The translations under genes and the position numbers were made by a program. Shown here piece after piece: positions 1,822-55,702 of a DNA stretch of 64,000 nucleotides. The notes below the pieces were generated by a model that saw nothing but the letters and a program-made list of their open reading frames with translations, searched no databases and was not told where the DNA came from. This stretch comes from Undibacterium sp. 5I1 (lineage in GTDB: Bacteria > Pseudomonadota > Gammaproteobacteria > Burkholderiales > Burkholderiaceae_D), in assembly GCF_034314085.1 (NCBI RefSeq), contig NZ_JAVIWI010000001.1, positions 3,286,001 to 3,350,000 on the forward strand, written 5' to 3'. The stretch's first letter is position 1. Each line of letters opens with the position of its first letter.

Positions 1822-2290
1822 TTTGTTCTCCTCTGATGCTCTGTGGGTAGTCATAACGGATTGCGTAGAGTGACTGTAAGCAATCACGCTGCATGGCGCT
1901 ACCGGGATGCGACAGTACGCAAGATAGTGGGATCAGATTGCGAGAGACGGTGATAGTTGGCTGGACGAACCAATAGAAAACGGGCAGGTAGATTACCTAA
2001 GAGCTAGGCAACGACACTTTTCTATCGGGAGTAATCGCTGTTACCAATCACCCAATTTAATCTATCGCTAATCTCTTTTAAATAAATATACTTACCACAA
2101 GTATATTTTTACTATCAATATAATCATTAGACGATACGGGGAGCTTTAAATAAATAACAGGGAGTATATTAATCCAGGCTCTTACTTGGGCTGCCAGACG
2201 AACTTTTTACTGATTCTGTAGCTATGTATTGTGGTCGTATGCTTTTAGTCAAATCCTCAAAATGAGGTTTCAGTTAGCGTAAATCATGGC
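1822..2290. other. Intergenic region, glpD to DUF1700 gene
   Basis: This 469-base gap holds no credible gene. It should contain the promoter of the DUF1700-DUF2807 pair. Its only clear structure is one minus-orientation copy of the nested palindromic repeat (about 2088-2172). I see no convincing terminator after glpD. Confidence 0.6.
2088..2172 (-). repeat. Nested palindromic element, copy 1
   Basis: Read on the minus strand, this begins AATATACTCCC, carries TCGTCTA in the middle and ends with AAATATAC followed by AAGTATATTT. That is the same order of blocks as the copies at 43259 and 49727. It is one of the more diverged copies: the right-hand terminal block is AAGTATATT rather than GGGAGTATATT. 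Confidence 0.65.
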
Positions 2291-3871
2291 TTATTTGCTG
2301 GCGATCCAGGCATCCAACACGCTTGCTGTACCTGGCGGTACATGCAAACCCAACTTTGAGCGGCGCCATAAAATATCTTCGGCATTGCGTGCCCATTCGT
2401 GGTGGATCAGGTAGCTGACCTCTGCTGCGTACAAGCCAGGTGCGATTTCTTCGCCCATGTGCGCCAGAGCGTTAATGCCCTCTAGCAGATGCTTAATGCG
2501 GGTGCCGTAAGCGCGGGCGTAGCGTTTTAATAGCGGGCTTGGCATCCACGGATAATCGCGGCGTAGACGTTTAATAAAATCATCGAACTCCAATACAGCG
2601 CGGTTATCTGGCCGATCACCAAAAACATCGCCGCCGGGCAAGCAGGCATTTGCGGTCCAGGCGGGTTTGATAGCGCTGAATTTATCTCTACCTGATTGAG
2701 TGAGTGCAGATTTAGCGAGTGCAGGCGTGATTAAATTGATCGCTTCTTCTGCCAGCTTGCGAAAGGTCGTAATCTTGCCACCAAAGACGGTTAGTAGCGG
2801 TGCGGCGGAGTCCGACAATTCCAAATGATAATCGCGGGTAATTGCTTTGGCATCCACGCTGCCGTCATCGACTAATGGCCGCACACCAGAATAAGACCAC
2901 AGTACGTCTTTGGGTTGAATTTCTTGCTTGAAATAGAGGCTACTCAGCTCACATAGATAATCAATTTCAGCCGCGTCGATCACCACTTTATTGATATCGC
3001 CCTGGTAGTTAATGTCGGTGGTGCCGATCAGAGTAAAGTCATTTTCATAGGGAATAACGAAAACGATGCGGCCATCAGGATGCTGAAAAATATACGCATA
3101 CGGATGATCAAACATGCGCTTCACTACGATGTGACTGCCTTTGATTAAACGCAAAGTTCTGGCAGTCTGCTGCGGCAAAATAGCTTGCTGTAATTGTGCT
3201 GCCCACGAGCCAGTCGCATTGATCAGGCTAGCTGCGCAGACCTCGGTAATTTGATTGACAGCGGCAGCAGCACCGGATGTATCACGTAATTGCGCCAGCC
3301 ATTTACCATCTTGCTGCACCACGGATTCGCAGCGCGTGTGGGTCATGATGGTGGCACCTTTTTCTGCCGCATCGATTGCATTTAATACGACCAGACGCGC
3401 ATCATCTACCCAGCCATCTGAGTATTCAAAGCCACGACTTAAATTAGCTTGCAAAGCCTGACCAGCCAGATGTTTTTTTAAATTGATGGCGGTAGATCCG
3501 GGCAATAATTCGCGCCTTGCCAGATGATCATACAAAAATAAACCTGCCCTCAACATCCATGCAGGACGCAGGCCTTGCATGTGCGGCATCACAAAACGCA
3601 GGGGCGTGATGATATGCGGGGCGGAACGTAATAATACTTCGCGCTCAATCAGCGATTTTCTGACCAGGCCAAACTCATAATATTCCAGATAGCGCAGGCC
3701 ACCGTGTATTAGTTTGGAGGAGGCAGATGAGGTGTGTGAAGCAAGATCATCTTTTTCGCACAGCACGACGGATAGTCCTCGGCCAGCAGCATCACGCGCA
3801 ATGCCAGCACCATTAATACCACCGCCGATTACCAGCACATCACATTCGATTTTACGTACAGTTTGAGTCAT
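2291..3871 (-). CDS. glpD: Aerobic glycerol-3-phosphate dehydrogenase
   Basis: The FAD-dependent enzyme oxidises sn-glycerol 3-phosphate to dihydroxyacetone phosphate and passes electrons to the membrane quinone pool. The 526 residues match the family length. The N-terminus has the dinucleotide-binding motif VIGGGINGAGIARDAAGRG (residues 15-33), followed by the GlpD-typical segments TSSASSKLIHGGLRYLE and FGGKITTFRK. No other glp genes (glpF, glpK, glpR) are adjacent, so it appears to stand alone. The ATG at 3871 has no obvious Shine-Dalgarno sequence, but the N-terminus aligns with the family, so the start is probably right. Confidence 0.93.
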   Translation of the reverse strand: MTQTVRKIECDVLVIGGGINGAGIARDAAGRGLSVVLCEKDDLASHTSSASSKLIHGGLRYLEYYEFGLVRKSLIEREVLLRSAPHIITPLRFVMPHMQGLRPAWMLRAGLFLYDHLARRELLPGSTAINLKKHLAGQALQANLSRGFEYSDGWVDDARLVVLNAIDAAEKGATIMTHTRCESVVQQDGKWLAQLRDTSGAAAAVNQITEVCAASLINATGSWAAQLQQAILPQQTARTLRLIKGSHIVVKRMFDHPYAYIFQHPDGRIVFVIPYENDFTLIGTTDINYQGDINKVVIDAAEIDYLCELSSLYFKQEIQPKDVLWSYSGVRPLVDDGSVDAKAITRDYHLELSDSAAPLLTVFGGKITTFRKLAEEAINLITPALAKSALTQSGRDKFSAIKPAWTANACLPGGDVFGDRPDNRAVLEFDDFIKRLRRDYPWMPSPLLKRYARAYGTRIKHLLEGINALAHMGEEIAPGLYAAEVSYLIHHEWARNAEDILWRRSKLGLHVPPGTASVLDAWIASK

Positions 3872-3925
3872 GTTTTTTAGTCTACTAACGGCTTCAATAA
3901 GCTTGGATCAAAGTAAAAAAGATAC

Positions 3926-5590
3926 TTATGCTTTTTCTACCCGATTACGGCCGTTGTCTTTGGCGCGATATAAGGCCGCATCAGCCCGAACCATCATGGC
4001 TTTTAAATCGTCGCCGTCTCTGATGTGCGTCACCCCAAAACTCATGGTGATATGCAAGCCTACGGCTACTGTGCTCCAGTCATAGGCTGCAATCACGTTG
4101 CGTATACGTTCGCAGGCTTCGACTGATTTTGCGGTGCGGTCAAATAATAAAGCGAACTCTTCCCCACCAATACGCGCAGCCATGTCGCCTGAGCGCAGAC
4201 AAGATGAGATCAAGCGCCCAACCTGACGCAGTACCTCGTCACCGATCAAATGTGAGTAGCCATCGTTGACCTTTTTAAAGAAATCAATATCGGCCATTGC
4301 GAATGCGACATTGGTGATTGTGCCGGTTAAACGCGTCGCCATTTTTTCTTCCAGCGCACGCCGGTTTGGTAAGCCTGTTAAGGTATCTTCATTAACCTGC
4401 ACCCGCAAGGTACGATTAAAATCTTCTAGCTGGTTGACCCGATTTTTATGGACTATTGCTTCTTGCTGCGCCCGCTCTAAATCCATTTTTGCCGCAAAAA
4501 TCTGGGCGCTGACTTGCGCTCTTTGATCACGCGCTTTGAGTGTAATCGTATGGAATTCTTTATAGACTTTTAAGGCCGCCTCAAAATTCTGAACCATCTC
4601 ATACGCATGCGAAAGAATTTTAAGCAAATCGGCCAGGTGCGGATAATTACCTAATCTCATCGCAAAATCACGGGCTTCTATCATCGATGCGACTGCTGCT
4701 TGCAGTTGCTGCATACGCAATTGTAAGGCGCCGATACGCACCTTGATATCGAGCTCTTCTTTAGCAAAGCCGTAGCCTGAAAATTGATCTAATCCATGAC
4801 CTAACTCTTGCAGCGCGAGATCATATAAACCCCGCTCTTCCAACGCATGTGCCAGCGTTTCTGTCGCCAGCAACTGAGTTCTCACCATCTTATTAGTTTG
4901 CGCATGAACCAGCGATTGGCGCGTATATAAAATAGCGTCGTCCAGCATCTGTACGTCTGGCGATGCACCATCTTCGTTCTGTACTTCGTAATAAATAATC
5001 AGGCTGTCTGCCCAATTATTTTTAACCCTTGCCAGGCTATCCTGATCCTGATTTTTTTCACATAGAATATAAGCTTCTTTGTAGATGGTGAGGCTGCGCT
5101 CAAATTGTTGAGTAATCGTAAATATAAAGCCGAGGGTGATCAGTATTTGCGCGAATTTTTTTGGTCTGTCTACCTGCCGCTCTATAGCGATCGCTTTTTC
5201 TGCATATTGCAAAGCGCTATTGGTATCACCAAACGCAAGGAAGGTACGAGCTAAGCCATGTAGTACATCTGCTTTTAGCTCCAGGCTATTACTTTTTTCT
5301 GCGTACTCTAAGGCGATTTCAAAATCGCGGATACCAGATGGGTCATGCAAAATAATGCGACAGTTCCCGATTTTGCAATGTAACTCGCCTATGACTACTG
5401 CATCGGCTTTGAATTCGACACTGGCTTCTGCCAGAGCAATTGCTTTTAAAATCAGCGCGATGGTCTGCGCAGGCTCACTCTCTATCGTGGCATCAGTCTG
5501 TCGGGATAAGGTGGATAATTCGTTATCCAACTGCGCTTGTGAAGTGATTTGAGTAAGCAAATTATGTGCTCCCGTTTGTCGGAGTAGCAT
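3926..5590 (-). CDS. TPR-GGDEF diguanylate cyclase
   Basis: This 554-residue soluble protein has an N-terminal array of TPR-like helical repeats (about 20-380), a short coiled coil (about 370-400) and a C-terminal GGDEF domain (about 405-554). The active-site signature is GGEEF at 475-479, so cyclic di-GMP synthesis from two GTP is expected. An RSGD motif at 466-469, five residues before GGEEF, matches the product-binding inhibitory I-site. No transmembrane segment is seen, so the TPR region is probably a cytoplasmic protein-interaction input. The start lies three bases after the stop of the exonuclease gene and has no clear ribosome site, which suggests translational coupling. Confidence 0.88.
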   Translation of the reverse strand: MLLRQTGAHNLLTQITSQAQLDNELSTLSRQTDATIESEPAQTIALILKAIALAEASVEFKADAVVIGELHCKIGNCRIILHDPSGIRDFEIALEYAEKSNSLELKADVLHGLARTFLAFGDTNSALQYAEKAIAIERQVDRPKKFAQILITLGFIFTITQQFERSLTIYKEAYILCEKNQDQDSLARVKNNWADSLIIYYEVQNEDGASPDVQMLDDAILYTRQSLVHAQTNKMVRTQLLATETLAHALEERGLYDLALQELGHGLDQFSGYGFAKEELDIKVRIGALQLRMQQLQAAVASMIEARDFAMRLGNYPHLADLLKILSHAYEMVQNFEAALKVYKEFHTITLKARDQRAQVSAQIFAAKMDLERAQQEAIVHKNRVNQLEDFNRTLRVQVNEDTLTGLPNRRALEEKMATRLTGTITNVAFAMADIDFFKKVNDGYSHLIGDEVLRQVGRLISSCLRSGDMAARIGGEEFALLFDRTAKSVEACERIRNVIAAYDWSTVAVGLHITMSFGVTHIRDGDDLKAMMVRADAALYRAKDNGRNRVEKA

Positions 5591-5593
5591 ACG

Positions 5594-6196
5594 TCATACT
5601 GAGAAACCGCCTGCTTTGTTGAGTGGCTTTGTATTTGGACTGGCAATTGCGTTCGTAGTTCTGTCCGCATCTGTCTTAGTATTGATCTTAGCATTAGTTT
5701 TGGCATCGTAGGTACGCAACCAGGTCAATTGCAATACCCGCGCGTCGGTGCTGGCACGATGCCGAGATACATGCAACTCATCCTGTATGCGGTCTTTAGT
5801 CGCATGCCATAAAGCCTGCTGATCGTCGGTAATAATCTCGCGCAAATCTGCCAGTTTAAAACGCGGCACTCTGCCTGCCGCATCAAACAAACGCGCCATC
5901 CAGACATAATCCTGCGCCCAGCCATCGGTGTAGACCGTATGCCCATTTAAAAAACTATTGAGCTGATCAACCACATAATCCGGCGAGCGGCCACGCTCGA
6001 CTAAAATCTCACGCGGGATGTGATGCACTTTGGCGGCCTCCACATCCCAGTGTTGCCAGTCGTCTTCCGGGCGAATCAGAGTACACCAGCCTTCACCATG
6101 TCGCCCGGAGAATCCGACCTCGATCGGATAACTGCCTTTGCCAAACCCAGAGGCTTCAAAATCAATAATGATAGGTACGGTCATCTGCACGGTCAT
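5594..6196 (-). CDS. DEDDh-type 3'-5' exonuclease family protein
   Basis: This 200-residue protein has a DnaQ-like nuclease fold. The first motif is DFEASG (residues 12-17), which supplies the D-x-E metal ligands. A central acidic segment is QDYVWMARLFD. The last motif, HRASTDA, provides the DEDDh histidine and aspartate. The substrate (DNA or RNA) cannot be told from sequence. The C-terminal 30 residues are low-complexity Lys/Thr/Asn. The start at 6196 has AGGAG nine bases upstream; a second ATG at 6184 is possible. Its stop is three bases from the start of the diguanylate cyclase gene. Confidence 0.75.
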   Translation of the reverse strand: MTVQMTVPIIIDFEASGFGKGSYPIEVGFSGRHGEGWCTLIRPEDDWQHWDVEAAKVHHIPREILVERGRSPDYVVDQLNSFLNGHTVYTDGWAQDYVWMARLFDAAGRVPRFKLADLREIITDDQQALWHATKDRIQDELHVSRHRASTDARVLQLTWLRTYDAKTNAKINTKTDADRTTNAIASPNTKPLNKAGGFSV

Positions 6197-6368
6197 TATT
6201 AATTGCTCCTGATGGTTATGGAACTTCTTTGGATTAGTTACGAATCACGCAAGCTAACTACTTAAAACGAGAAATAACGTTTTATTAATTTTGCGCTATT
6301 TTTATAACAATGCAAGTTCTATTCCTACTTTAGTTCTTACTTTATCGTACATATCATCAATCACCACT

Positions 6369-7592
6369 CTATTCGTAGCGTAAACAATCCACCGGCAACA
6401 GCAAAGACGCCCGGCGTGCCGGATAAAATCCAAAGAAAATTCCGACAAAACTGGCAAAACCACAAGCAACCAGCATTGCGCCAAAGCCGATTTCTACATC
6501 CAGCTTACCCGTCGAAGTAATGGCGGCGGCACCCGCACTTGCCAGCAAAATACCAAATACGCCGCCGACTAAACAAATCACTACCGCTTCCGTCAAAAAC
6601 TGTAACAGCACGTCGCGCGGCTTGGCACCAATCGCCATCCGTATGCCAATCTCGCGGGTACGCTCAGTCACCGATACCAGCATGATGTTCATAATGCCAA
6701 TACCGCCCACAATCAATGAAATCGCACCAATTGCGCCCAGCATGGCGGCCAGGCCTGCACTGATTTTGGCGCCGGTCTCTGCAATGGACGCCAAGTTATC
6801 AATTCGAAAATCATCTTCTTGTTCGGACTTAATATGATGGCGATCACGCAGCATGTCTTTAATATCTTGGTCGGCGTCCTTCAGTGATTTATCGTCTTTT
6901 GCCTGTACCACTACATAATGCACATTAGAGGGAAAAGGACTGCGCATCAAGGTTGCGCGGGCAGTTGTGATCGGGATCAAGACCATCTCGCCCAGATCAC
7001 CGCCATCAAACATCCGTCCCTCGCCCTGCAATACGCCAACCACCTGAAACGGCACATTATCAATGCGGACAAACTGACCGAGTGGATTGGTTTTATAAAA
7101 AAACTGCTCGGCTAACTTTTTACCGATCACGACCATACGAGCTGCGCCGCGGATATCAGAATCACTAAAATAATTGCCCTGATCAACTTTCCAGTTACGC
7201 ACCTTAAACATCTCTGGCGTGATCCCAAGTACCGCGCTGTTGGTATTGTCATTGCCAACCGCGATCTGAAAAAACCCTTGCAAAGCTGGAGCTGCGCCGT
7301 TCAGGCTAGGTAATTCATTGAGCGCCAGTGCATCATCTACAGATAAAGAAGGCGCTGTACCTGTGCGCGCCCGCACACCTTGAGTACGATTGGCACCCGG
7401 CGATACGATCATCAAATTACTACCCAATACCTCTAACTCTTTCGAGATAAATTTCTTAGCGCTTTCGCCTACAGCCAACATCATTACTACCGAGGTGATG
7501 CCGATGATGATACCCAGCATAGTCAGCGAGGTACGCAGCCGATTGGCATTCATGGAGCGGAATGCTTCAATAAAAACTTGAAGAAAATTCAT
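6369..7592 (-). CDS. MacB-like ABC transporter permease
   Basis: This 407-residue protein has the MacB/FtsX permease layout. An N-terminal cytoplasmic helix is followed by one membrane segment (about 23-43), a large periplasmic MacB-PCD domain (about 50-260) and three C-terminal FtsX membrane segments. The segment GGIGIMNIMLVSVTERTREI is characteristic. In Escherichia coli MacB the ATPase and permease are fused; here they are separate genes. The start overlaps the ATPase stop by four bases (ATGA) and has GGAG upstream. It is the last gene of an adaptor-ATPase-permease operon. The exported substrate is unknown. Confidence 0.88.
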   Translation of the reverse strand: MNFLQVFIEAFRSMNANRLRTSLTMLGIIIGITSVVMMLAVGESAKKFISKELEVLGSNLMIVSPGANRTQGVRARTGTAPSLSVDDALALNELPSLNGAAPALQGFFQIAVGNDNTNSAVLGITPEMFKVRNWKVDQGNYFSDSDIRGAARMVVIGKKLAEQFFYKTNPLGQFVRIDNVPFQVVGVLQGEGRMFDGGDLGEMVLIPITTARATLMRSPFPSNVHYVVVQAKDDKSLKDADQDIKDMLRDRHHIKSEQEDDFRIDNLASIAETGAKISAGLAAMLGAIGAISLIVGGIGIMNIMLVSVTERTREIGIRMAIGAKPRDVLLQFLTEAVVICLVGGVFGILLASAGAAAITSTGKLDVEIGFGAMLVACGFASFVGIFFGFYPARRASLLLPVDCLRYE

Positions 7593-8485
7593 AATCCGAC
7601 TCCGCTCTGATCTTGTGACATATAGTTATTGGAAGCGGTTGCAGCCGCTTGTGTAGCCGCCTGTGAAGAAACCTGTGCATGCGCCTCGTGGCTTTGCGCT
7701 AGCTGTTGCAAACCCTCTACCGCCGGGCCATCGTATAAAACATGGCCATCTTTGAGGCGGACTAAACGTTTGCTATACGCGGCAATATCTGGCTCATGTG
7801 TCACCAGTAAAATCGTAATGCCGCGCTCGGCATTTAACTGCTGCAAAGAGCGCATGATCTCGACGCTGGTTTGAGTATCCAGATTACCGGTTGGCTCATC
7901 CGCTAGAATCAGCGGTGGATCAGCGACTAATGCGCGGGCAATTGCCACCCGTTGTTGCTGGCCACCAGAAAGTTGATTCGGCAAACGTTTTGCGTACTCT
8001 TTTAAGCCTACCCGCTCCAGTTCGACCAAGGCTTTTTTGTATGCTTTATCGCGTGATACACCGGCATAAATGAGCGGCAAGGCGACATTCTCTGCAACGC
8101 TCATCCTTTTAATCAGATTAAAACTCTGGAATACAAAACCGATTGTACGATTGCGTATCGTCGCTAATTCACTGCGTGACAAAGTTAACGTATCCACCCC
8201 ATTTAAGCGGTAAGTACCGTTGGTCGCCTGGTCCAGACAACCAAAAATATTCATCAGCGTTGATTTGCCAGAACCCGATTGCCCCATCACGGCTAAAAAA
8301 TCACCCTGCGGTACCAACAGATTGATCCCGAATAAAACCTGGGTCTCAATACCGCCGGAGAAGTAACTTTTAGTCACCTTACGGATATCGATCAGTGGCT
8401 GAGCCTCAGCTTGCGTCTGAGCTTGAGACTGAGCTACCGTTTGATTTATAGCCTTGCCTTTCGTATCCATTTTTGTGCTTACCAT
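7589..8485 (-). CDS. ABC transporter ATP-binding protein (MacB/LolD type)
   Basis: The ATPase subunit has 298 residues. Walker A is GQSGSGKST, the signature is LSGGQQQRV, Walker B is LILADEP followed by the D-loop, and the H-loop histidine lies in LLVTHEP. The GNLD after Walker B is typical of the LolD/MacB/FtsE class. A Gln/Ala-rich N-terminal extension of about 28 residues precedes the domain, and a similar low-complexity tail follows. The start overlaps the adaptor stop by one base (TAATG) and has AGGA eight bases upstream. It pairs with the permease encoded next. Confidence 0.9.
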
Positions 8486-9768
8486 TAGTGCGATCCTGCA
8501 TTGGCAATATCCAGTGATCTGATAATCACTTTATCGCCAGGCTTTAGATCGCCAGAAAGCACTTCGGTATAGCGAAAATTAGACAAACCAATTTTAATAT
8601 CGACAGGCTTAGCTTTGTTTTTTTCATCAAGCACAAAAATTTTAAATGAGCGCGTCATCTCGCCCTTGCTACGGAAAGACACATCGTCCTCTGCTTCTGG
8701 GCGAGGCACAACAGATGCGCTGGCCGAGGCTGCGCTTGTCACTGCACTTGACCCAGCACCTGATTCTGCCGCTTTTTTCTCAGCCTCTTTCTTCAACTTC
8801 GCTTCTTTGGCGATCTCCTCATCACTCAATTTAAAACGTAGTGCAGCGGTGGGGATGCGCAATACGTTCTGGCGATTACCGACAACCAGACGCACCTGCG
8901 CCGTCATGCCTGGCTTTAATAATTCATCTTTGTTATCCACGTCCAAGACGACGTTATACGTCACTACATTTTGCTGGACATTGGCTGCAAGCCGGAACTG
9001 GCGCAAGCTCGCATCAAACTCACGGTCGGGGTAGGCATCCACCACAAAACGCGCCGCCTGGCCGTCTTTTAACGATCCCACATCGGCTTCAGACACATTG
9101 GTATCAATCTGCATTTTGGTCAGATCACGCGCAATCTGGAACAGGTTCGGTGTCTGGAAAGATGCCGCTACCGTTTGCCCCATATCGATCGTGCGCTTGA
9201 TGATGACGCCATCAATCGGTGACCGGATCACGCTGTTATTAAAATCCGCCTGCACCCGATCCAGCTGCGCTCTGGCGAGTTTGATATTGGCATCGGCCAC
9301 TTCTACCTCACGCTTCAACTGGTCTAACGATGCGCCAGAAATATAGCTCAGCGAAACCAGTTTTTGATTACGATCTAAGTTTGCCACCGCCAGCCGCTTG
9401 GACGATTCGGCCGATGCCAACGTGGCTTCGCTCTGTTTAATCTGGGCGTTAAAAATGGTCGGGTCCAGCTTCAATAACACTTGCCCTTTTTTAACCCTGT
9501 CGTTGAAATCGGCATTCAACTCCACCACAGTGCCAGATACTTGCGAACCCACGCTGATGAGCGCAACCGGATTGAGTGTGCCGCTGGCAGTTACAGTTTG
9601 GGTCAGGTTGCCTTTGTCGACGATGGCGGTCTTAAATTGTGGCTCCTCATCCTTACTGGCCTTTTGCTTTTTTTGGTAGTAGCTGGCTGCGGCGCCAGCA
9701 ATAAGTAATATCACGACAGCGAGGATAAAACGTTTTTTAGTAAAAAATGTCATCACAAGATCAATCAA
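8485..9768 (-). CDS. MacA-like periplasmic adaptor subunit
   Basis: This membrane-fusion protein of about 427 residues begins with one membrane anchor (RFILAVVILLIAGAAASYY). It continues with a barrel-sandwich hybrid domain (VTASGTLNPVALISVGSQVSG), a coiled-coil hairpin (about 100-165) and C-terminal beta-barrel and membrane-proximal domains. An Ala/Ser/Glu-rich insert (about 330-370) is low complexity. It is expected to bridge the inner-membrane ABC pump and an outer-membrane channel; no TolC-like gene is in the window. The first codon at 9768 would be TTG. An ATG at 9753 is equally likely and neither has a strong ribosome site. Confidence 0.88.
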   Translation of the reverse strand: MIDLVMTFFTKKRFILAVVILLIAGAAASYYQKKQKASKDEEPQFKTAIVDKGNLTQTVTASGTLNPVALISVGSQVSGTVVELNADFNDRVKKGQVLLKLDPTIFNAQIKQSEATLASAESSKRLAVANLDRNQKLVSLSYISGASLDQLKREVEVADANIKLARAQLDRVQADFNNSVIRSPIDGVIIKRTIDMGQTVAASFQTPNLFQIARDLTKMQIDTNVSEADVGSLKDGQAARFVVDAYPDREFDASLRQFRLAANVQQNVVTYNVVLDVDNKDELLKPGMTAQVRLVVGNRQNVLRIPTAALRFKLSDEEIAKEAKLKKEAEKKAAESGAGSSAVTSAASASASVVPRPEAEDDVSFRSKGEMTRSFKIFVLDEKNKAKPVDIKIGLSNFRYTEVLSGDLKPGDKVIIRSLDIANAGSH

Positions 9769-10177
9769 ATAGAGTGGGTGGGCGACGAATTCACATCAAA
9801 TTCACATCAAGAGCTACATAAAACCAATTGACCTTAGCAGTTACCTTTTTGCTCAGGAACATTCTTTTGTTATTCGGAAAAATTCCAGGAATAACATATA
9901 CTCCCCATAAATTTTTATCAAATCGGCTAATTGTCTAGTTTTTCTCTGGACAACTTAAATATACCTACCGGGAGTATTTATATTAATACTTTAAATACCA
10001 AGCCATGCGAAGCGATGAATCCAACATCACAAGCAACGGTTAATTAACGGCCAATTAAGAAACAGCGTCGATTCTAAGCACGCTCTAAGCGTGTATGAGT
10101 GCGCTCAATTTGCAATCAATAGCAGAACTTATTTACAGCAATTTACTTCTGCCAGACACATGATCAATCCTGTCATC
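9769..10177. other. Intergenic region upstream of macA-like operon
   Basis: About 410 bases without a credible gene. It should hold the promoter of the adaptor-ATPase-permease operon. It carries repeat copy 2 (about 9896-9984). The remaining sequence is AT-rich, and I see nothing else that I can name. Confidence 0.55.
9896..9984 (+). repeat. Nested palindromic element, copy 2
   Basis: The left end is ATATACTCCCC and the right end GGGAGTATTTATATT. Inside lie TTGTCTA and TGGACAA, able to form an inner hairpin, followed by CTTAAATATACCTACC. This is one of the best-preserved copies and a good seed for a search. Confidence 0.75.
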
Positions 10178-12902: not shown

Positions 12903-12922
12903 TTAATTATCAAAGTGAGCTA

Positions 12923-38656: not shown

Positions 38657-38746
38657 AATATACTCCCCAATATATTTTATAAATATGCCTTATTGTCCAT
38701 TGATTCTAAGGACAACTTAAATATACCTACTGGGAGTATCTTTTAA
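38657..38746 (+). repeat. Nested palindromic element, copy 3
   Basis: Left end AATATACTCCCC, then GCCTTATTGTCCA and AAGGACAACTT forming an inner hairpin, then AAATATACCTACTGGGAGTAT. It is well preserved and lies between the dehydratase gene and liuA. Confidence 0.75.
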
Positions 38747-42054: not shown

Positions 42055-42138
42055 TATACTAGGTAGGGGTAAGTTACATCAATGCCGTATTGTCCATATT
42101 TTATTTGGACAATACGACTAATTAAACCGATACTCCCC
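42055..42138 (+). repeat. Nested palindromic element, copy 4 (diverged)
   Basis: The inner hairpin is perfect and long: GTATTGTCCA (42087-42096) and TGGACAATAC (42106-42115). The right end has ATACTCCCC in place of GGGAGTAT, and the left end reads TATACTAGGTAGGGG. The outer ends are therefore altered or swapped relative to the other copies, while the central GCC(T/G)TATTGTCCA block is kept. Confidence 0.6.
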
Positions 42139-43183: not shown

Positions 43184-43501
43184 ATCGGTGACCAAATGAT
43201 GCAAAACCAGCACAGATTTTTATACCCTTTTTACTCGCTCGTTTCCCGCACGGCCAAGATACTCCCCATTATTTTTCATAAAAACAGCCAATCGTCTATT
43301 TAATATATGGACAATCTAAATATACTCATAGCGGGTATATTTTTTATCTGCTCTGTATATCCAAATATCACGCATGCGATTTAAAAAATCGCTCTATTTT
43401 TTGTTGTCATTTTGTACTATTCTAAGCGCTAAGACTTCGCTTTCGCTGAGATCAAACGCAGCCACAAGCAAGCTGACGCAAAAAACAAAATAGGGAGTCG
43501 T
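43184..43501. other. Intergenic region upstream of histidine kinase
   Basis: This 318-base gap contains repeat copy 5 (43259-43345) and the presumed promoter of the leader-kinase transcript. There is no other clear structure. Confidence 0.5.
43259..43345 (+). repeat. Nested palindromic element, copy 5
   Basis: Left end ATACTCCCC, then GCCAATCGTCTA, TGGACAATCTAAATATAC, and right end GCGGGTATATTTTTT. The inner stem is imperfect (TCGTCTA against TGGACAA), as in copy 1. Confidence 0.7.
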
Positions 43502-45714: not shown

Positions 45715-45764
45715 AGTGGACTTCTGAAAATTCAAATCAGAGCCAACAAGCAAATCAATATAAG

Positions 45765-45812: not shown

Positions 45813-45845
45813 CGTGAGCACAGAAATCAGCTACCAGGGAACATC

Positions 45846-46250: not shown

Positions 46251-46321
46251 TCGTATCGACAGCTATTGCTATCGTTATTCGCAATGTTGCTGCATGCTCC
46301 AAAAATCGACATTTCCCCTTC

Positions 46322-46618: not shown

Positions 46619-46684
46619 GACAGTATTAATCCACGCAAGATGTTTTTGTAATTTGCTCATGTAATTTGGTTTTAATAGTTCGTT

Positions 46685-46925: not shown

Positions 46926-46972
46926 TAGGTCTGATATTGAGCCGCAATCGAAGTTTGATCTGGCAATGGTGC

Positions 46973-47002
46973 AAAAAAAAGGGAGCTTTCGCTCCCTTTT
47001 TT
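46973..47002. terminator. Bidirectional rho-independent terminator
   Basis: The stem GGGAGC / GCTCCC has a four-base loop, with eight A before and six T after it. It lies 13 bases past the stop of the TonB receptor gene on the minus strand. Confidence 0.9.
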
Positions 47003-47015
47003 ATTTCGTCATCAA

Positions 47016-49340: not shown

Positions 49341-50106
49341 GTTTTAAGGCCTTATTTAAAAGTCTGGTTGAGTGTAGCTTTTGCTGAGCTAGTGATTAAA
49401 TTTAAAAAGAAAGCTTGAAAATTGAAATCGACACTGGAATGTTGCGTGTCCGGCAAACCTAGCCGTCTTCAAGCCATCTTTATCTTGCAGGAATTGCTTA
49501 AGTTGTATAGCTGACTCAAAGGTAGCATGAAGTGCGGAGGCGGAAAAGGAAGCCAGCTGGCAGTGTGGTATTAATGGTATACATCGAATATCGATCAAAA
49601 ATGCTTCACCATGGAGCAAAAAACAAATGCTTTAACCAATAAATACGTGGCGAAATTCTCCGTAAAAAAAATCCTCAATGTCATTGTTTATTCCATTTTT
49701 GTAGCCTACAAAACAATCGGATATTTATATACTCCCATTAAATTTGTCTAAAATTACCTTATTGACCAATAATTATATGGACAACTAAAATATACCCTCC
49801 TAGAGTATATTTAACTCATGCATCAATTTTGAATCTGAGATTTACCCGAAAAGGGAACCAGGCGAGAAAAAATGCGCGCTGTCTTTTCATTTTTATTTAT
49901 CTGTATGACGAGGCACTTTTCTCGGGCAAGACAAGTTCCGCCTTAAGAGAGTGCGGGCATGCACTTACATCGCTCTTACGCAAATAGATAAATAGAGGTA
50001 ATTGAGTAAAAATGGAGTTTGCAGGATGTAAAAATAAGATGTCTGAAGCACTCTTATAAACCAATTTATACATAAAACTCAGCTGCGCGCGAAACGCTTT
50101 GCCATG
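49341..50106. other. Intergenic region upstream of TonB receptor
   Basis: This 766-base gap includes the receptor leader and repeat copy 6 (49727-49812). A 76-codon frame at 49389-49619 on the minus strand has no family features and I do not regard it as a gene. No riboswitch or Fur-like palindrome was recognised. Confidence 0.5.
49727..49812 (+). repeat. Nested palindromic element, copy 6
   Basis: Left end ATATACTCCC, then ACCTTATTGACCA and TATGGACAACT, then AAAATATACCCTCC and right end AGAGTATATTT. Both stems are retained with few changes. Confidence 0.75.
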
Positions 50107-50973
50107 TTAAAGCGACCTTAAATATGCCAACCCAGCAATCGCGCGGCTGCCGTACCAGGACAGCATTTCGCCATCTACCAGCTGAACTGGTTTGCCGATT
50201 TGCTGCTCTAAAGCGTCAACATGGATTTCTGTAAACCGATAGGGTTCGGTCGAGAGCAAAACGCCGTCAATCTCGCTGGCTACTTGATCGCTCCACTCAA
50301 ACCGGGGATAGCGCTCGGTGGACTGTGGATGCTGCCAGGTTTTCCAGCCGATCAGAGACAACATATTGGCAATATAAGTATCGCTGGACACCGTCATCCA
50401 CGGGTCTTTCCAGATGCAATACAGCATGGTTTGTGGTAGTGCGATTTGCGCCGGCGGTGCTAGCTCAGTGTCGTGCTCAGTGTCGTGCTTAGTGTCGTGC
50501 TTAGTGTCAGGCTTGGTGTCAGGCTTGGTGTCAGGCTTGGTGTGGAGCTGAGCGTAGTTTTTTTCAAACTCGGCGCAGAGTTTTTCAGCGGCTGGTGCGA
50601 CCTGAAAAATATCGCCAAGCAAACGATACAGGGCAAGATTGTCACGCGGTGTGATGGGATGGGTGACGACGATATGTGGAATAAATGCGGCAAGTTGATC
50701 AACGGTGGGCTTTTGGTTTTCATCGATGTTGACGATGAGATGGGTAGGCGCAAGGCGACGGATTTTCTCGATATTGACATCTTTAGTGCCACCGATTTTG
50801 GGGATGGTTTTGACAATATCTGCCGGATGAATACAAAAACCTGTACGACCGACCAGCCAGGGAGCCAGCCCCAGATCGCACAGCAATTCGGTAATTGACG
50901 GCACCAGACTAACGATGCGCGGATTGACATCAGCGGGGAGATGGGCCTGACCCGTAGCATCAATTAGCGGCAT
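50107..50973 (-). CDS. Cobalamin/metal-binding protein (helical backbone receptor)
   Basis: This 288-residue protein is of the BtuF/helical-backbone metal receptor type: N-terminal lobe RIVSLVPSITELLCDLGLAPWLVG, then GGTKDVNIEKIRRLAPTHLI, and the C-terminal lobe with YGSRAIAGLAYL. No signal peptide is present, so unlike BtuF it may stay in the cytoplasm or the true start may be missing. Residues 146-171 are a repeated (K/E)(P/H)DT tract encoded by a 12-base tandem repeat in the linker between the lobes. The ribosome site appears to come from repeat copy 7, which ends just upstream. Confidence 0.8.
   Translation of the reverse strand: MPLIDATGQAHLPADVNPRIVSLVPSITELLCDLGLAPWLVGRTGFCIHPADIVKTIPKIGGTKDVNIEKIRRLAPTHLIVNIDENQKPTVDQLAAFIPHIVVTHPITPRDNLALYRLLGDIFQVAPAAEKLCAEFEKNYAQLHTKPDTKPDTKPDTKHDTKHDTEHDTELAPPAQIALPQTMLYCIWKDPWMTVSSDTYIANMLSLIGWKTWQHPQSTERYPRFEWSDQVASEIDGVLLSTEPYRFTEIHVDALEQQIGKPVQLVDGEMLSWYGSRAIAGLAYLRSL
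50470..50543. repeat. 12-bp coding tandem repeat
   Basis: About six 12-base units of the form GTGTC(A/G)(G/T)GCTT(A/G) lie inside the cobalamin/metal-binding protein gene. They encode alternating KPDT and KHDT units. The frame is kept because 12 is a multiple of three, so copy changes would only lengthen or shorten the linker. Confidence 0.85.
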
Positions 50974-50979
50974 ATTTAC

Positions 50980-51065
50980 TATACTCCCCCGTTATTTCAC
51001 AAAAAACTGCTTAATGCCCAATGATATTATGGACAATTAAAATATACTTATTAGGAGTATATTTC
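50980..51065 (+). repeat. Nested palindromic element, copy 7
   Basis: Left end ATACTCCCCC (50981-50990), then GCTTAATGCCCA, TATGGACAATTAAAATATAC and right end AGGAGTATATTT. Its left end lies seven bases from the start codon at 50973. On the minus strand that end is GGGGGAGTAT, a purine-rich stretch at Shine-Dalgarno distance. Confidence 0.75.
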
Positions 51066-51088
51066 ATTCAAATTCTACAAAGATGTCA

Positions 51089-51868
51089 TCAGGATTCATT
51101 TGCACGCGGTTTTCTGCGTGCTTTGGCAAAAACACGATCATAAAGCCAATTAGGAAGCACGCGCATTAGCTTGGCAACTACGCCCATTTGCCAGGGGATA
51201 ATCCGGTAAGAATCACCACGATCAATCGCAGCAACGGCTGACTTGGCAAAGGCCTCAACCGGCATTAAAAATGGCATAGGATAAGGGTTGTCACGTGTCA
51301 TCGGGGTATCAATATAACCTGGTGCAATGGTCACCACTTTGATGCCGCTTGAGCGCAACTCGACGCGCAACGACTCGCAATAACTGATCACCGCCGCCTT
51401 GGAGGCGCTGTAGGCTTCAGCCCCCGGCAAGCCGCGTATGCCGGCGACACTGCCGATACCGACCAGACGGCAATCTTGCTGTTTGGCGTAGCCTTGCATC
51501 GACGCGATAAACGGCGCAAAGGTGGCGACGGTCGCAATTAGATTGGTCTCTATGACGCGAGCAAAGACCGGAATATCTTCGGCATGCTCAGTCAAAGTTC
51601 CGACAGAAATACCCGCATTCGCAACCACGACATTCACTTGACCGACCGCCTGAATAAAATCCGTAGCAGCCTTGGCCAGCGCAGCGTGATCGGTAACATC
51701 TAAAGGGTAAATTTGATGCTTGTCTGCGTTGGGCAAGCTTTGTCGTAATTGTTCCAATACGTCCTGACGGCGTGCGACCAAACCAAGCACCGCACCTTGC
51801 TCCGCAAAACTACGCGCCAGTGCTGCGCCGATACCGGAAGATGCGCCTGTGATAAATACTGTTTGCAT
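51089..51868 (-). CDS. SDR family oxidoreductase
   Basis: This classical short-chain dehydrogenase of about 259 residues has the cofactor motif GASSGIG near the N-terminus, ANAGIS, a catalytic Ser in GIGSVAG and the catalytic YSASK. The C-terminal region is basic (KARRKPRANES) and includes LMRVLPNWLYDRVF, typical of SDRs annotated as membrane-associated. The substrate is unknown. ATG 51868 lies directly after the dsbA terminator T-run, and the alternative ATG 51886 lies inside its hairpin. Neither has an ideal ribosome site. I prefer 51868 on N-terminal similarity. Confidence 0.85.
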   Translation of the reverse strand: MQTVFITGASSGIGAALARSFAEQGAVLGLVARRQDVLEQLRQSLPNADKHQIYPLDVTDHAALAKAATDFIQAVGQVNVVVANAGISVGTLTEHAEDIPVFARVIETNLIATVATFAPFIASMQGYAKQQDCRLVGIGSVAGIRGLPGAEAYSASKAAVISYCESLRVELRSSGIKVVTIAPGYIDTPMTRDNPYPMPFLMPVEAFAKSAVAAIDRGDSYRIIPWQMGVVAKLMRVLPNWLYDRVFAKARRKPRANES

Positions 51869-51870
51869 AT

Positions 51871-51900
51871 AAAAAAAGTCCGTCATTAACTGACGGACTT
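51871..51900 (-). terminator. Rho-independent terminator after dsbA
   Basis: The perfect ten-base stem AAGTCCGTCA / TGACGGACTT has a five-base loop. On the minus strand a T-run follows. It lies 31 bases after the dsbA stop and overlaps the upstream ATG of the SDR gene. Confidence 0.85.
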
Positions 51901-51931
51901 CCTTAAATTATTACCTACCCAAATCGGGAAA

Positions 51932-52696
51932 TTATTTCTTTTTTGCAGCGTCTTTTGCCGCTGGTGCTGGCGTTACTTTACTTGCTGCCGGTGCTGCCGC
52001 AGCAGGTGCATTTTTGTCCTTCAAGACTTTATTAAACAAGAAATCCAGAACTTGAATACCGGCGACATTTTGTGCATCTTCAGTCACACGTCCCAAACCC
52101 TTTGCTGCCATTGCAGGGCCAGTCATATAACGACCATCGACTGCAAACATTGGCACGCTATCGATACGGTAAGCATCTTGCATCTGTGCTGAGCGATTGA
52201 CTTTGCTTTGCACTGCGAACGAGTTATAAACGTCCATAAATTTTTGTTTATCCAGACCCGATTTCGTCACAAATTCCATAATATCGGCATCGCTTTGCAA
52301 GCGGTTACGCTCAATGTGGAGTGCAGCAAACGCCTTGGCATGGAATTCTTCTGTTTTACCCATGGCTTCTAAGGTGTAATACAGTTTTTGCTGCGTGACC
52401 AAGTCGTGAAAGTTGACATGGATACGTTTAAAAACAATATTGTCACCTTGCTTTTTTACCCATGCGGCGATCACTGGCTCTAATGCATTGCAATGCGGGC
52501 AGAAGTAGCCAAAGAATTCGATCACTTCTACTTTTTTCCCACCTTCGGCCGGCTGCGGGCGATCTAATACAGTGTATTCAACACCATTTTGTGGCATTGT
52601 GGGGCTTGCGCTAGCGGTCGCAGCGACAAAACCTAAGCCCAGACCAAACCCAATTACTAACAACATTTTTTGTGTCATTTGACGGATTGAACGCAT
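51932..52696 (-). CDS. dsbA: Thiol:disulfide interchange protein DsbA
   Basis: This periplasmic thioredoxin-fold oxidase introduces disulfide bonds into exported proteins. The 254 residues start with a signal peptide (about 1-31, ending ASA). The active site is C66-P-H-C69 within FFGYFCPHC. An Ala/Pro/Lys-rich C-terminal tail of about 25 residues (ending KDAAKKK) is an extension not seen in E. coli DsbA. The ATG at 52696 has AAGGA upstream; a GTG one codon earlier is possible. It sits downstream of the SPOR-domain gene with a gap of about 55 bases and has its own terminator. Confidence 0.94.
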   Translation of the reverse strand: MRSIRQMTQKMLLVIGFGLGLGFVAATASASPTMPQNGVEYTVLDRPQPAEGGKKVEVIEFFGYFCPHCNALEPVIAAWVKKQGDNIVFKRIHVNFHDLVTQQKLYYTLEAMGKTEEFHAKAFAALHIERNRLQSDADIMEFVTKSGLDKQKFMDVYNSFAVQSKVNRSAQMQDAYRIDSVPMFAVDGRYMTGPAMAAKGLGRVTEDAQNVAGIQVLDFLFNKVLKDKNAPAAAAPAASKVTPAPAAKDAAKKK

Positions 52697-52751
52697 CACT
52701 TTTCCTTTATATTATTCAAGAATATGTCTTGCTATTGCAACTGACTCAGAA

Positions 52752-53456
52752 CTACTTAGCGGTACGGACCACTGCGACATCCACACTGTTTTCAGACAAC
52801 TTTGCGCGCATTCGGTTCATTGTTTCGATCTGATTAAATGGACCAATCCGAACTCGATACAGCGTACCATTATCCGAGGGCTTTTCGCTGACACGAGCCT
52901 CAAAACCGATCAATGCCAGCTTGGCGCGGGCACTCTCTGCGTCGGCCTGATCACGGAATGCACCTGCTTGCAGATAGTAGACGTATTTGTCATCAACAGT
53001 ATCGCCCGCTCTGGTGGCATCGGCTGGTTTAACTTCGGCCTTGTCTTGCGTGGCGATGGCTGGCTTGGCGATCTCGGCTGGCTTGCTGTCTACTTTAGCA
53101 TCTGGAAGTTTGTTTCCGACAGCGTTGCCAGGCGTAGCCGCTACATTACTAACATTGGCAACAGCGTCCGGGGCTTTAGGAGCATCCACAGGTTTTACAA
53201 AATCCTTAGCCGCCTCTTTTACCGCGTCTTTATTCCCATACATAGGCTTATTGGGATCTTGCACTTGAGTCACTGGTATATCTGCGGCTTTCGCGCCTTT
53301 GTTGGTAAAAGGCGTGGAAGATTTGGTAATCAATAATGCGACGGCGACGGCGATTGCCAAGCCGATGACTAAACCGACGATCAGTCCTAGCAAGGTACCG
53401 CCATGCTGACGGACGGTTTTAATAGTTTGATAGCGATGATAAGAAAGCGATTTCAT
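52752..53456 (-). CDS. SPOR domain-containing protein
   Basis: This 234-residue protein has one N-terminal membrane segment (about 18-45, GLIVGLVIGLAIAVAVALLI), a long Lys/Ala/Pro-rich periplasmic linker (about 50-150) and a C-terminal SPOR domain (about 155-232; YYLQAGAFRDQADAESARA). SPOR domains bind denuded peptidoglycan at division septa, as in FtsN. The start has GGAG upstream. The order argS, SPOR, dsbA on one strand is familiar to me from other Burkholderiales. Confidence 0.92.
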   Translation of the reverse strand: MKSLSYHRYQTIKTVRQHGGTLLGLIVGLVIGLAIAVAVALLITKSSTPFTNKGAKAADIPVTQVQDPNKPMYGNKDAVKEAAKDFVKPVDAPKAPDAVANVSNVAATPGNAVGNKLPDAKVDSKPAEIAKPAIATQDKAEVKPADATRAGDTVDDKYVYYLQAGAFRDQADAESARAKLALIGFEARVSEKPSDNGTLYRVRIGPFNQIETMNRMRAKLSENSVDVAVVRTAK

Positions 53457-53627
53457 GCGTCTCCGATTTAATAGGTCTTAAATGACTTTATATTGACACT
53501 TAGATTGGTAGTTATGTTCAGACTTAAATTCCCACATAGACAAATATTATTTCAGCGTAGTGCATTGATCAATATTGATAGATATTGATAAAAATGCGCT
53601 GTCGCTGAAATAATTCACCGAAGCTCT

Positions 53628-55340
53628 CTACATTTTATTCGGCGCCGATACGCCAATCAAGGCGAGTCCGTTACGCAAGACCTGGCGGGTTGCCAGCATC
53701 AAAGCCAGACGTGCCATTTTGGTCGCTTCATCATCGACCAAAATCCGTTCGGCATTGTAATAGCTATGCAGCTCGCCTGCCAGATCGCGCAAATAGAAAG
53801 CGATCTGATGCGGCCCCAACTCGTCCAGCGCTTTTTGCAAGGCTTCTGGATATTCTGCCAGTTTTGCCAACAAGGCGGCTTCCCGTACGGCAGTAAGGGG
53901 TGACAAATCGACGTCTTTTAACTTCGCCAGCACATCTTCATCGCTGCTGTATTGCGCCAGCACGGAGCAAATCCGGGCATGGGCGTATTGCACGTAATAC
54001 ACAGGATTTTCATCTGAACTCGCTAAGGCGACGTCAACATCGAACACGAATTCGGTATCGGCCTTGCGCGAAATCAGGAAGAAGCGCACTGCGTCCCTAC
54101 CTTTAACGACATCACCATTACCGGACCAATCAATCAGATCACGCACCGTGACATAGGAGCCTGCGCGCTTAGAGATTTTGACCTCGGCACCGTCCTTCAT
54201 CACTGTGACCATTTTATGCAGCACATAGTCAGGATAGCCTAACGGTACGCCCACATTGGCAGCTTGCAAACCGCCGCGCACGCGAGCAATGGTGCCGTGA
54301 TGGTCGCTGCCCATAATGTTGATCGCCTTCTGGAAACCACGTTGCCATTTGACGATGTGGTAAGCAACGTCAGGGACAAAATAAGTATAAGTCCCGTCAG
54401 ACTTCTTCATGACGCGGTCTTTGTCGTCGCCGTATTCTGTGCTGCGCAACCATAAGGCGCCATCGAGTTCGTAGGTTTTGCCAGCTTTGATTAGGGCTTC
54501 TACTGCGGCTTCTACTTTCCCATCTTTATATAGGGAGGTTTCTAAGTAGTAGTTATTAAACTTCACGCCAAATGCGAGCAAATCCATATCCTGTTCGTTA
54601 CGCAGGTAGGTCACGCTGAACTGGCGGATAGAATCGATATCGTCGACATTGCCAGTGGCAGTAACAGGTGCGCCATCGCTTGCAGAAACCGTCTTTTTCG
54701 CTAAAAAGTCGAGTGCGATCTCAGCAATATAATCGCCGTTATAAGCTGACTCTGGCCAACCTGCTTCACCCGGCTTGAAGCCTTTGGCGCGTGCTTGCAC
54801 GGACAAAGCGAGGTTTGCAATTTGTACGCCGGCATCGTTGTAATAAAACTCCCGCGTGACGTCATAGCCTTGTGCCTCAAATAAGGCGGACATCGCGTCG
54901 CCCAACGCACCTTGGCGTCCATGACCGACATGCAAAGGTCCGGTTGGATTGGCAGAGACAAATTCGATGATGACTTTCTTACCTGCGCCTTGGTCACTTT
55001 TACCAAAATCTGCGGTTTGCTCTAATACCGTTTTGGCGATGGCTTGCTTAGCGGCGTCTGTCAGACGAATATTGATAAAGCCCGGACCAGCGATTTCGGC
55101 AGCGGCGATCAAGCTACTGGATTGCGCCATAATTGCGGCAACAATGGCCTGCGCCAGTTCACGTGGATTTTTTTTGAGCGGTTTGGCAATTTGCATTGCG
55201 ATATTGCAAGCGATGTCGCCGTGCGAAGCGTCGCGCGGGCGTTCCAATACGATATTTGGCGTTAAATCGCTGCCAACCAACAAAGGCTGAACAGCGAGTT
55301 GGAATAGTTTGGAAATTTCTTGTTTTTGTTGAGCTAGCAT
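53628..55340 (-). CDS. argS: Arginyl-tRNA synthetase
   Basis: This class I synthetase charges tRNA-Arg with arginine. The 570 residues have the N-terminal additional domain, the HIGH-like motif in [20 protein letters not shown], the second signature region [12 protein letters not shown] and a C-terminal DALR anticodon-binding domain ending [12 protein letters not shown] start at ATG 55340 (MLAQQKQEI). The frame continues to 55403, but those residues are not conserved in type. The gene is separated from the SPOR gene by 171 bases. Confidence 0.96.
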
Positions 55341-55496
55341 AGTGTGCGCGCACCTCGCGTTAAGGCTGAGGTATAGGTAGGTGTGTATGTAAAGAGACAG
55401 CAAACATTATACTGTCTTGCACACTCAAAGTCCGTATTGGCGTTGGACGAGCTGGTGAAGAGCTAGCAGATACCCGTTGATTGAGGTCTGATTAGT

Positions 55497-55520
55497 CAGG
55501 ACAGTTTTGCGTAAGTCCTG
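55497..55520 (-). repeat. Partial copy of GGACTTACGC hairpin repeat
   Basis: On the minus strand this reads CAGGACTTACGCAAAACTG then TCCTG, matching the left arm of the 24494 element at about 20 of 22 positions. The ends CAGGAC/GTCCTG can pair as a small hairpin. Confidence 0.6.
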
Positions 55521-55617
55521 ATTGGCGTCTGATTGATCGTCGATTGCCTGAGAAGACTTTACCTGATTTGGACTGGAAACTAGCTACATAATTAGTGCAA
55601 CATGAAAAAGACGTTTA

Positions 55618-55702
55618 AATATACTCCTTACAGTATATTTAAACGTCCATATAATCGTTGGACATTTAAGCATATTTTCAAAAATATTGGGGTAGTATAT
55701 TA
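55618..55702 (-). repeat. Nested palindromic element, copy 8
   Basis: On the minus strand: AATATACTACCCCAATATTTT, TGCTTAAATGTCCA, TATGGACGTTTAAATATACTG and AGGAGTATATTT (the first block includes one extra base). The inner stem AAATGTCCA / TGGACGTTT and the outer stem are both retained. Confidence 0.75.

Follow-up and report, generated by a model that had tools for sequence, protein, structure and literature searches.

Eight related intergenic elements are found in the window, which is the whole stretch of 64,000 nucleotides of the Undibacterium sp. 5I1 genome that was analyzed. The first-pass annotation had described eight copies of one nested palindrome, and an element is indeed present at all of these positions (8/8). 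The uniform plan holds for the six copies a, b, c, e, f and g, which carry exact boxes 63 bp apart, whereas copy d does not fit and copy h is imperfect. The copies are given below with their half-site (L) and full site (R).

Copy a, 2088..2167, minus strand: L half-site ATACTCCC at 2160-2167, R ATAC-N9-GTAT at 2088-2104; dyads 63 bp apart
Copy b, 9898..9977, plus strand: L at 9898-9905, R at 9961-9977; dyads 63 bp apart
Copy c, 38660..38739, plus strand: L at 38660-38667, R at 38723-38739; dyads 63 bp apart
Copy d, flipped class, 42056..42137, minus strand: L GGGAGTAT at 42130-42137, R TTAC-N9-GTAT at 42056-42072 (one mismatch); dyads 74 bp apart
Copy e, 43259..43338, plus strand: L at 43259-43266, R at 43322-43338; dyads 63 bp apart
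Copy f, 49729..49808, plus strand: L at 49729-49736, R at 49792-49808; dyads 63 bp apart; common to the close relative G035
Copy g, 50981..51060, plus strand: L at 50981-50988, R at 51044-51060; dyads 63 bp apart; common to G035
Copy h, 55620..55698, minus strand: L ATACTACC at 55691-55698 (one mismatch), R at about 55621-55636 with an 8-bp instead of a 9-bp core

For copy d, the distance from L to R is 65 bp and the match in the model search is weak (E 0.002).

The repeat family in the Undibacterium genome

The repeats form one family in the Undibacterium genome, made up of several hundred short DNA elements between genes. Chance-level sharing of short AT-rich motifs is ruled out, since exact-pattern matches lie far above controls. 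The genome contains the right-end pattern AAATATACN{2,10}GGGAGTAT 51 times as an exact match, always with a gap of 5 bp, and the pattern ATACTCCCN{40,62}ATAC-N9-GTAT 303 times, both against 0 control matches. The exact pattern of the flipped class was found 43 times in the whole genome and 0 times in the controls. From 78 copies in 824 kb of sampled DNA, the family size is estimated at about 460 copies per genome. This unbiased sample gives one copy per 10.6 kb, slightly less than the density of one per 8 kb proposed from the window. The intergenic position and the occurrence in both orientations were described correctly: 77 of the 78 sampled copies overlap called genes by 30 bp at most or not at all, and 40 lie on the plus and 38 on the minus strand.

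Convergent gene pairs are enriched for copies (23/73 vs 70/368, p 0.027) and divergent gaps are depleted of them (6/73 vs 79/368, p 0.009). The median distance of the copies is 158.5 bp to starts and 103 bp to stops, and 12 of the 56 start distances are below 50 bp. In tandem gaps, the copies show no orientation preference: 22 point the same way as their genes and 22 the other way. The suggested term "REP-like" is apt as a description of several hundred short intergenic copies that prefer convergent ends and avoid divergent gaps. In a sample of 399 genomes from the order, the family occurs in Undibacterium alone; culturable species that carry it include U. griseum, U. rivi and U. oligocarboniphilum. 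At the level of titles and abstract openings, no published description of it was found in the literature.

Architecture and divergence of the element

The conserved feature of the element is a ruler, in which the full site R lies at a set distance from the half-site L. R has the form ATAC-N9-GTAT with AT-rich arms and a G-tract, while L occurs as ATACTCCC in forward orientation at 62/63 bp from R or as the flipped GGGAGTAT at 54 or 65 bp. If L and R are read as operator halves, the dyads are about 63 or about 74 bp apart, which is near six or seven helical turns. A TAC-X9-GTA core with AT-rich arms is present in columns 64-88 of 104 copies, which were selected partly on that box; 104 of 123 copies were kept on box quality, and the box conservation is therefore partly ascertained. 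Between the arms, G79 is found in 91 of the 104 copies, G78 in 74 and G77 in 59, and the G-tracts are longer in other species. Near R (20-110 bp) in the sampled own DNA, the flipped exact L was counted 3 times and the reversed control word CCCTCATA 2 times. Since these counts are nearly equal, the flipped class rests there on the spacing and on the whole-genome counts of 43 vs 0.

The inner motif differs by species. Its inverted repeat is clearly above shuffles only in G000, G006 and G011 among the nine species with at least three copies. By eye, the inner motif of several species is suggestive of a further, third site whose spacing would be 9 bp.

Between the own genome and G035, the boxes differ at 27/584 and the variable interior at 82/539 positions in 17 pairs. 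The corresponding values are 17/339 and 41/313 (p 3e-4) in the 10 pairs that were not chosen via the G035 copy. Purifying selection on the boxes is thereby shown relative to the fast interior only. A slower divergence of the boxes compared to the flanks was also considered. It was seen in all 17 pairs (4.6% vs 7.6%, p 0.007), in 7 of which the G035 copy had been selected by box match. It was dropped, since the difference vanishes in the 10 pairs free of this selection, where the boxes differ by 5.0% vs 6.0% for the flanks (p 0.54) and 6.9% for the non-coding flanks (p 0.23).

A low-type DUF156 protein as candidate ligand

In core, arms and G-tract, R fits the published CsoR motif TAC-X9-GTA with AT-rich arms and a G-tract (PMC3902906). 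An R pattern of 20 fixed bases was scanned against 84,980 species and gave 75 stretches, namely 23 from Acinetobacter and the others from Undibacterium or other records titled Burkholderiales/Burkholderiaceae. A CsoR-like reading frame begins shortly downstream of the motif in 21 of the 22 Acinetobacter stretches examined, and all frames scanned (7/7) are PF02583. A low-type DUF156 gene of 104 aa is located outside the window at genome position 3,684,703-3,685,017. Low and high type were separated by score band; sequences were read for 19 low-type loci and promoters for 13 high-type ones. In a fold comparison, the 15 best PDB matches are all CsoR, InrS, CstR or FrmR.

The low-type promoter carries the R-L arrangement in all element-bearing genomes examined (12/12), with dyads 73.5 bp (10 genomes) or 72.5 bp (2 genomes) apart; G000 and G035 are near-duplicates in this set. 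In seven element-free genomes, the dyads are 59, 59, 61 or 71 bp apart, or L is missing. The promoter L falls in ADTPP codons, which element-free species retain as well for the sake of the protein, and thus the spacing alone is informative at this promoter. The R core of the promoter measures 8 bp in element-bearing species compared to 9 bp in most elements. No L is found within 330 bp at 11 of the 13 high-type promoters.

The low-type gene is present in 14/14 element-bearing genomes and the FrmR-like high-type gene in 8/14, while elements are absent from 12 of 26 low-type genomes; these co-occurrence counts are not corrected for relatedness. On a single-gene tree of 20 rows, element presence needs four changes, three of them forced. 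It clusters weakly, a count this low being reached in 67 of 500 shuffles.

Given the architecture, the phasing, the distribution, the promoter match and boxes that diverge more slowly than the interior, each element is probably (a probability of roughly two thirds) a docking site in two helically phased parts for the low-type DUF156 protein of the CsoR/RcnR/FrmR superfamily. The earlier guess of a "regulatory element" comes close to such a repressor-type docking site. From these observations we infer protein binding, DNA wrapping and a cellular role. R would be a full pseudo-palindromic operator AAATATAC-N9-GTATATTT with its G-tract, and L would be half of an R-type operator in either orientation, with about 63 or 74 bp between its dyad and that of R. 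The spacing of six or seven turns would put protein on R and L on one helix face, where it could bend, wrap or bridge the intervening DNA. Occupancy of L would need cooperativity, because the half-operator alone was reportedly not bound by CsoR of S. lividans (PMC3902906). At the low-type gene's own promoter, the R-L arrangement would probably serve autoregulation.

The about 460 other copies may anchor the protein along the chromosome in a nucleoid-type or insulator/roadblock role, perhaps together with titration. Anchoring is favored over ordinary promoter operators because most copies are remote from divergent promoters and sit closer to gene ends. More tentatively, and in our view possible rather than probable, a protein of the CsoR/RcnR fold may have turned into a chromosome organizer in Undibacterium. 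At gene ends, its several hundred phased sites would allow it to bridge DNA or to wrap it. The network would co-evolve with the phased autoregulatory site and be lost where the phasing is lost.

Alternatively, a different DNA-binding protein, or a pair of proteins involving the species-specific inner motif, could be the true ligand, and the match at the low-type promoter would be coincidental. In line with this, the low-type gene alone is insufficient for elements, and the Acinetobacter operators that resemble R seem to go with a different subtype of PF02583. By eye, the genes behind these Acinetobacter sites are high-type-like in sequence, and the R motif class therefore does not single out the low type. 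However, the architecture is shared and the promoter spacing is kept in all 12 element-bearing genomes examined, so that another ligand appears unlikely.

Mobility, regulation and comparison with known systems

A non-autonomous mobile element of the MITE or REP/RAYT type would have ATACTCCC...GGGAGTAT as terminal inverted repeats and a transposase acting in trans. Intergenic copies in hundreds would be in agreement with this. Copy g was not found at the same gene pair in 10/10 other species, three of them element-bearing, and two copies of locus L106 were not found in 10/10 other species, which indicates that copies are gained or lost; a further L106 copy was not found in 2/2 testable species. 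Furthermore, synteny breakpoints adjoin a copy at two places, copies adjoin a RAYT-like gene both in G020 (a strict copy) and in the own genome (a model-found one directly after the gene), and the boxes in the unbiased pairs are not measurably slower-evolving than the flanks.

Against mobility, no offset or length stands out as target-site duplication among 103 copies, and none of 5,356 copy pairs is more than 90% identical. Of 21 own copies compared with G035, all 13 testable without bias are present there; the other eight comparisons used stretches fetched via that very copy and are uninformative on presence. Two species with 92% identity were searched over 200 kb for empty sites; no copy is polymorphic there and only another repeat family differed. 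Hence recent insertion polymorphism, as expected for a MITE, was not seen, although older gain or loss does appear. L is found both ways round with the same dyad, which is unexpected of terminal inverted repeats with a set orientation. REP sequences with RAYT are hairpins of 20-40 bp linked to a RAYT gene, whereas the element has about 80 bp and shows no covariation. RAYT-like genes are present whether or not a genome has elements, and at 1 of 20 RAYT-like loci a copy is seen by the strict finder within the fetched stretch. The MITE proposal is thus not supported, and mobility of either type is improbable.

The positional conservation of the copies is mixed. Five comparisons of foreign element loci with own intergenic regions matched, four of them with an own copy; among these five, one own locus (L023) had been chosen so as to be centred on an element, and a single own site (L284) serves in two comparisons. 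Two close copy groups 2.2-2.8 kb apart (L286, L287) were considered as possible composite elements.

In an ordinary regulon, the copies would be operators repressing neighboring genes upon a signal. The sites are operator-like and some are at most 50 bp away from a start codon. The depletion of divergent gaps, the larger median distance to starts than to stops and the missing orientation preference nevertheless make this quite improbable. The position at the promoter of a regulated gene, as for a DUF156 operator, is not that of the elements in general, though R-L is found at the low-type promoter.

Nested hairpins working in transcripts as structured RNA, attenuator or terminator are very improbable, even though outer and inner arms are pairable in most window copies and convergent gene pairs are preferred. 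In 104 copies, pairing in the stems tested equals the expectation from column composition, and covariation is absent from the proposed stems. The reported base changes on both stem sides are true of single copies, but they are not compensatory. No Rfam family reached its gathering threshold with the copies. Among the 30 strongest distant column pairs by mutual information, only one belongs to a proposed stem, namely the weak pair 64-88 (z 3.5) within the R palindrome. The highest values come from neighboring columns or from column 61, where the copies differ by one base in length. Tandem copies are half opposite to their genes, and a flipped L loses the outer stem, yet the dyad spacing is retained. 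Judged by sequence, the symmetry of the element is that expected of a double-stranded protein-binding site.

If the docking-site reading is true, then one member of a family known, in the literature consulted, for responses to metal, formaldehyde or persulfide possesses several hundred phased sites and is deployed like a nucleoid protein. This would be one way for an intergenic repeat family to persist by protein binding instead of mobility. The copy-number series across one genus (about 460, tens, none) would offer natural test material.

Operators of the CsoR/RcnR/FrmR family (DUF156, PF02583), e.g., the tandem sites of E. coli rcnA-rcnR, resemble the element in the TAC-X9-GTA core, the AT-rich arms, the G-tract and more than one site per region (PMC3902906; PMC7055735); for E. 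coli RcnR, two TACT-G6-N-AGTA sites are reported (PMC7055735). In contrast, the Undibacterium elements number several hundred per genome, lie mostly off divergent promoters and have one site cut to a half-site, in either orientation and at a set helical phase. REP/BIME and ERIC-type repeats likewise are short, imperfect palindromes that occur many times between genes and stay out of coding sequence. The Undibacterium element differs in having neither a consistent RAYT link nor hairpin covariation, and in its ruler-like box spacing around a variable interior. The sites of the chromosome-organizing proteins MatP (matS) and SlmA are scattered along one chromosome; each is a single short palindrome, and the proteins that bind there are unrelated. 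Similar to these, the Undibacterium elements are many scattered copies of a putative protein-binding motif, but each is a two-part site of about 80 bp that matches a DUF156 operator.

Copies and distribution of the element

The repeat is an intergenic element of about 80 bp, and all eight copies that the first-pass annotation had claimed are present in the window. The search model, which contained no base pairs, was constructed from 37 copies; 30 of them had been picked by the exact right-end pattern, so that the model is biased at that end. The window covers positions 3,286,001–3,350,000 of a contig in a 4.88 Mb genome, and across this whole genome the model yielded at least 150 matches, the worst among the matches listed having an E-value of 2.5e-13. 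Sampling 824 kb regardless of copies (the window plus 38 stretches, each 20 kb long) gave 78 copies at E < 1e-5, which corresponds to about 460 per genome; their number per 20 kb follows a Poisson-like distribution (mean 1.87, variance 1.85).

Each copy consists of two boxes, the half-site L and the full site R (ATAC-N9-GTAT), with an interior between them. Exact-pattern matches in this genome number 303 with L forward and 43 with L flipped; the backward-read control of the pattern gave 0 matches across all 43 genus genomes. Of 106 measured copies, 103 span 79–81 bp between the start of L and the far end of R. Among the 104 of 123 distinct copies that were aligned, having been kept for good boxes and ordinary length, pairwise identity averages 68% and reaches at most 89.7%, and none of the 5,356 pairs exceeds 90%.

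The forward pattern occurs in 16 of the 43 genus genomes, 14 of these with 13 or more matches. Order-wide, it was detected in 4 of 399 genomes, all from this genus, and the 395 others, including nine of the same family, showed no forward-pattern match (the order-wide control pattern matched once). A single-gene tree suggests that the element-bearing species are not a single clade.

Phased boxes instead of hairpins

We consider it fairly probable, at roughly two in three, that the family represents dispersed, phased two-part putative binding sites of a DUF156 protein (PF02583, CsoR/RcnR/FrmR), here called the low type. Architecture, phasing, distribution and the match at the promoter come from computation. 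The earlier proposal of nested palindromic hairpins, with a structured RNA as one explanation, was rejected, since stem pairing in the 104 copies is about what the columns alone predict. The compensatory changes proposed as a check did not emerge: the outer, inner and TTT/AAA stems as well as the R palindrome pair close to column expectation. For example, C12 is invariant, yet its partner column G77 reads A in 35 copies of this alignment.

In the DNA of this genome L, ATACTCCC, lies ahead of ATAC-N9-GTAT at 62 bp (17 cases), 63 bp (38) or 64 bp (3), with one stray distance of 88 bp. In other species, where many stretches were chosen via R, forward L stands 61–64 bp from R in 46 of 47 cases and its reverse complement GGGAGTAT at 53–55 bp (18) or 65 bp (5). 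Sixty permuted control words occurred at most 4 times at any one distance from R, and the best-scoring of them, TCCCCATA, overlaps the same box. If L is taken as one half of a TAC-N9-GTA operator, the dyads are 63 bp apart in the forward 63 bp and flipped 54 bp arrangements and 74 bp apart in the flipped 65 bp one, values near 6 and 7 turns of 10.5 bp each. Copy d, which departs from the plan first described for the window copies, falls in the 74 bp class. The inner motif is species-specific, TGGAC being present in 46 of 61 copies of this genome vs. 1 of 71 in other species, and this may mean a second protein.

Divergence, turnover and genomic setting

Between this genome and its close relative G035, 17 pairs of copies differ by 4.6% in the boxes, 9.9% in intermediate columns, 15.2% in variable columns and 7.6% in the flanks, 7 of the G035 copies having originally been found by box match. 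For the other 10 pairs the values are 17/339 (5.0%) in boxes, 41/313 (13.1%) in variable columns and 170/2845 (6.0%) in flanks. Here, variable columns differ from boxes (p = 3e-4) and from flanks (p = 1e-5), and no difference was detected between boxes and flanks (p = 0.54) or non-coding flanks (128/1851, p = 0.23). In these pairs, then, the interior evolves at about twice the rate of the non-coding DNA around it, and the boxes change like ordinary flanks.

For 13 of the 21 copies compared with G035, the stretch used had been chosen independently of the copy in question, and every one of these 13 is present in G035. Beyond G035, copy g and three copies of stretch L106, the four testable in that direction, were not found in more distant species. 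At three gene pairs another species has a copy in the same place and orientation, one of the three loci of this genome being element-centred by construction. At a DUF429/TetR pair (gene names by eye from translations) three species share a copy in place, with intact boxes and different interiors. Based on gene calls from a simple codon-usage script, the 73 copies with two neighbours (4 copies lacking a neighbour and 1 overlapping a gene were left out) occupy 44 tandem, 23 convergent and 6 divergent gaps, compared with 219, 70 and 79 among gaps of at least 100 bp; convergent gaps are enriched (Fisher, 0.027) and divergent gaps depleted (0.009).

Several further features were observed. Synteny between close species breaks off at, or immediately next to, the end of an element in L256 (G027 C5 174,832) and in L106 (~3,629). 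A separate MITE-like repeat of 108–115 bp with ends like GGACTTRCRCAA was seen in L248 (G027 C5 ~14,867), L252 (G027 C5 ~82,293) and L356 (G033, orthologue of L106, ~15,200); it is apparently mobile, since at each place only one of two 92%-identical species carries it. In most of the species searched, L106 18,214–18,371 and 18,481–18,609 match several places; many of these matches reach 80–92%, more than the surrounding genes do, and the two stretches may represent a small conserved RNA or a repeat. At ~50,460–50,560 of the window a short GTGTCGTGCTCA-like tandem repeat within a reading frame differs in length from G035, and C2 and C1 (~1.41–1.44 Mb) of this genome contain several matches to Y1 (IS200-type) transposases, of which at least four have no stops.

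The low-type DUF156 protein and known CsoR/RcnR operators

A PF02583 search of the genus gave two score bands. The low type is present in 26 of 43 genomes (104 aa where fully read, 103 in G003) and in 14 of 14 element-bearing genomes, the FrmR-like high type in 8 of these 14. Low-type scores are above the Pfam cut-off (59.1 vs. 22.8) and far under the NCBIfam cut-offs for RicR, FrmR and RcnR. The predicted structure has three helices (mean pLDDT 80, pTM 0.60). Structures of CsoR, InrS, CstR or FrmR account for all 15 of its top PDB fold matches, with a probability of 1.00 and weak Foldseek E-values of 0.02 or more. Residues 50–56, at the conserved cysteine, read C(D/E)GIAQQ in element-bearing species and CEAVAQQ, CEAIAQQ or QELVAQQ in element-free ones.

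The low-type gene carries in its own promoter an R-type site, with an L box within the first codons. In 12 element-bearing genomes the R core is 8 bp and the dyads are 73.5 bp (10) or 72.5 bp (2) apart; in 7 element-free genomes they are 59, 59, 61 or 71 bp apart or there is no countable L. High-type promoters lack L inside 330 bp in 11 of 13 cases, and those of this genome and G035 have an ordinary element upstream. At the elements, the low-type protein would bind and possibly wrap the DNA, and it may have an architectural role; PMC7055735 cites a study whose title refers to DNA wrapping by RcnR.

An independent scan for the R motif returned 23 Acinetobacter stretches, and in 21 of 22 (one from A. 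baumannii left out) a CsoR-like frame begins shortly downstream. All 7 frames scanned are PF02583 (E 1e-20 to 2e-23), and by eye these proteins resemble the high type more. The common CsoR motif is described in a passage of PMC3902906 as 5'-TAC-X9-GTA-3' flanking G-tracts, and the tandem RcnR sites as TACT-G6-N-AGTA, two of which lie in the rcnA-rcnR region according to a passage of PMC7055735.
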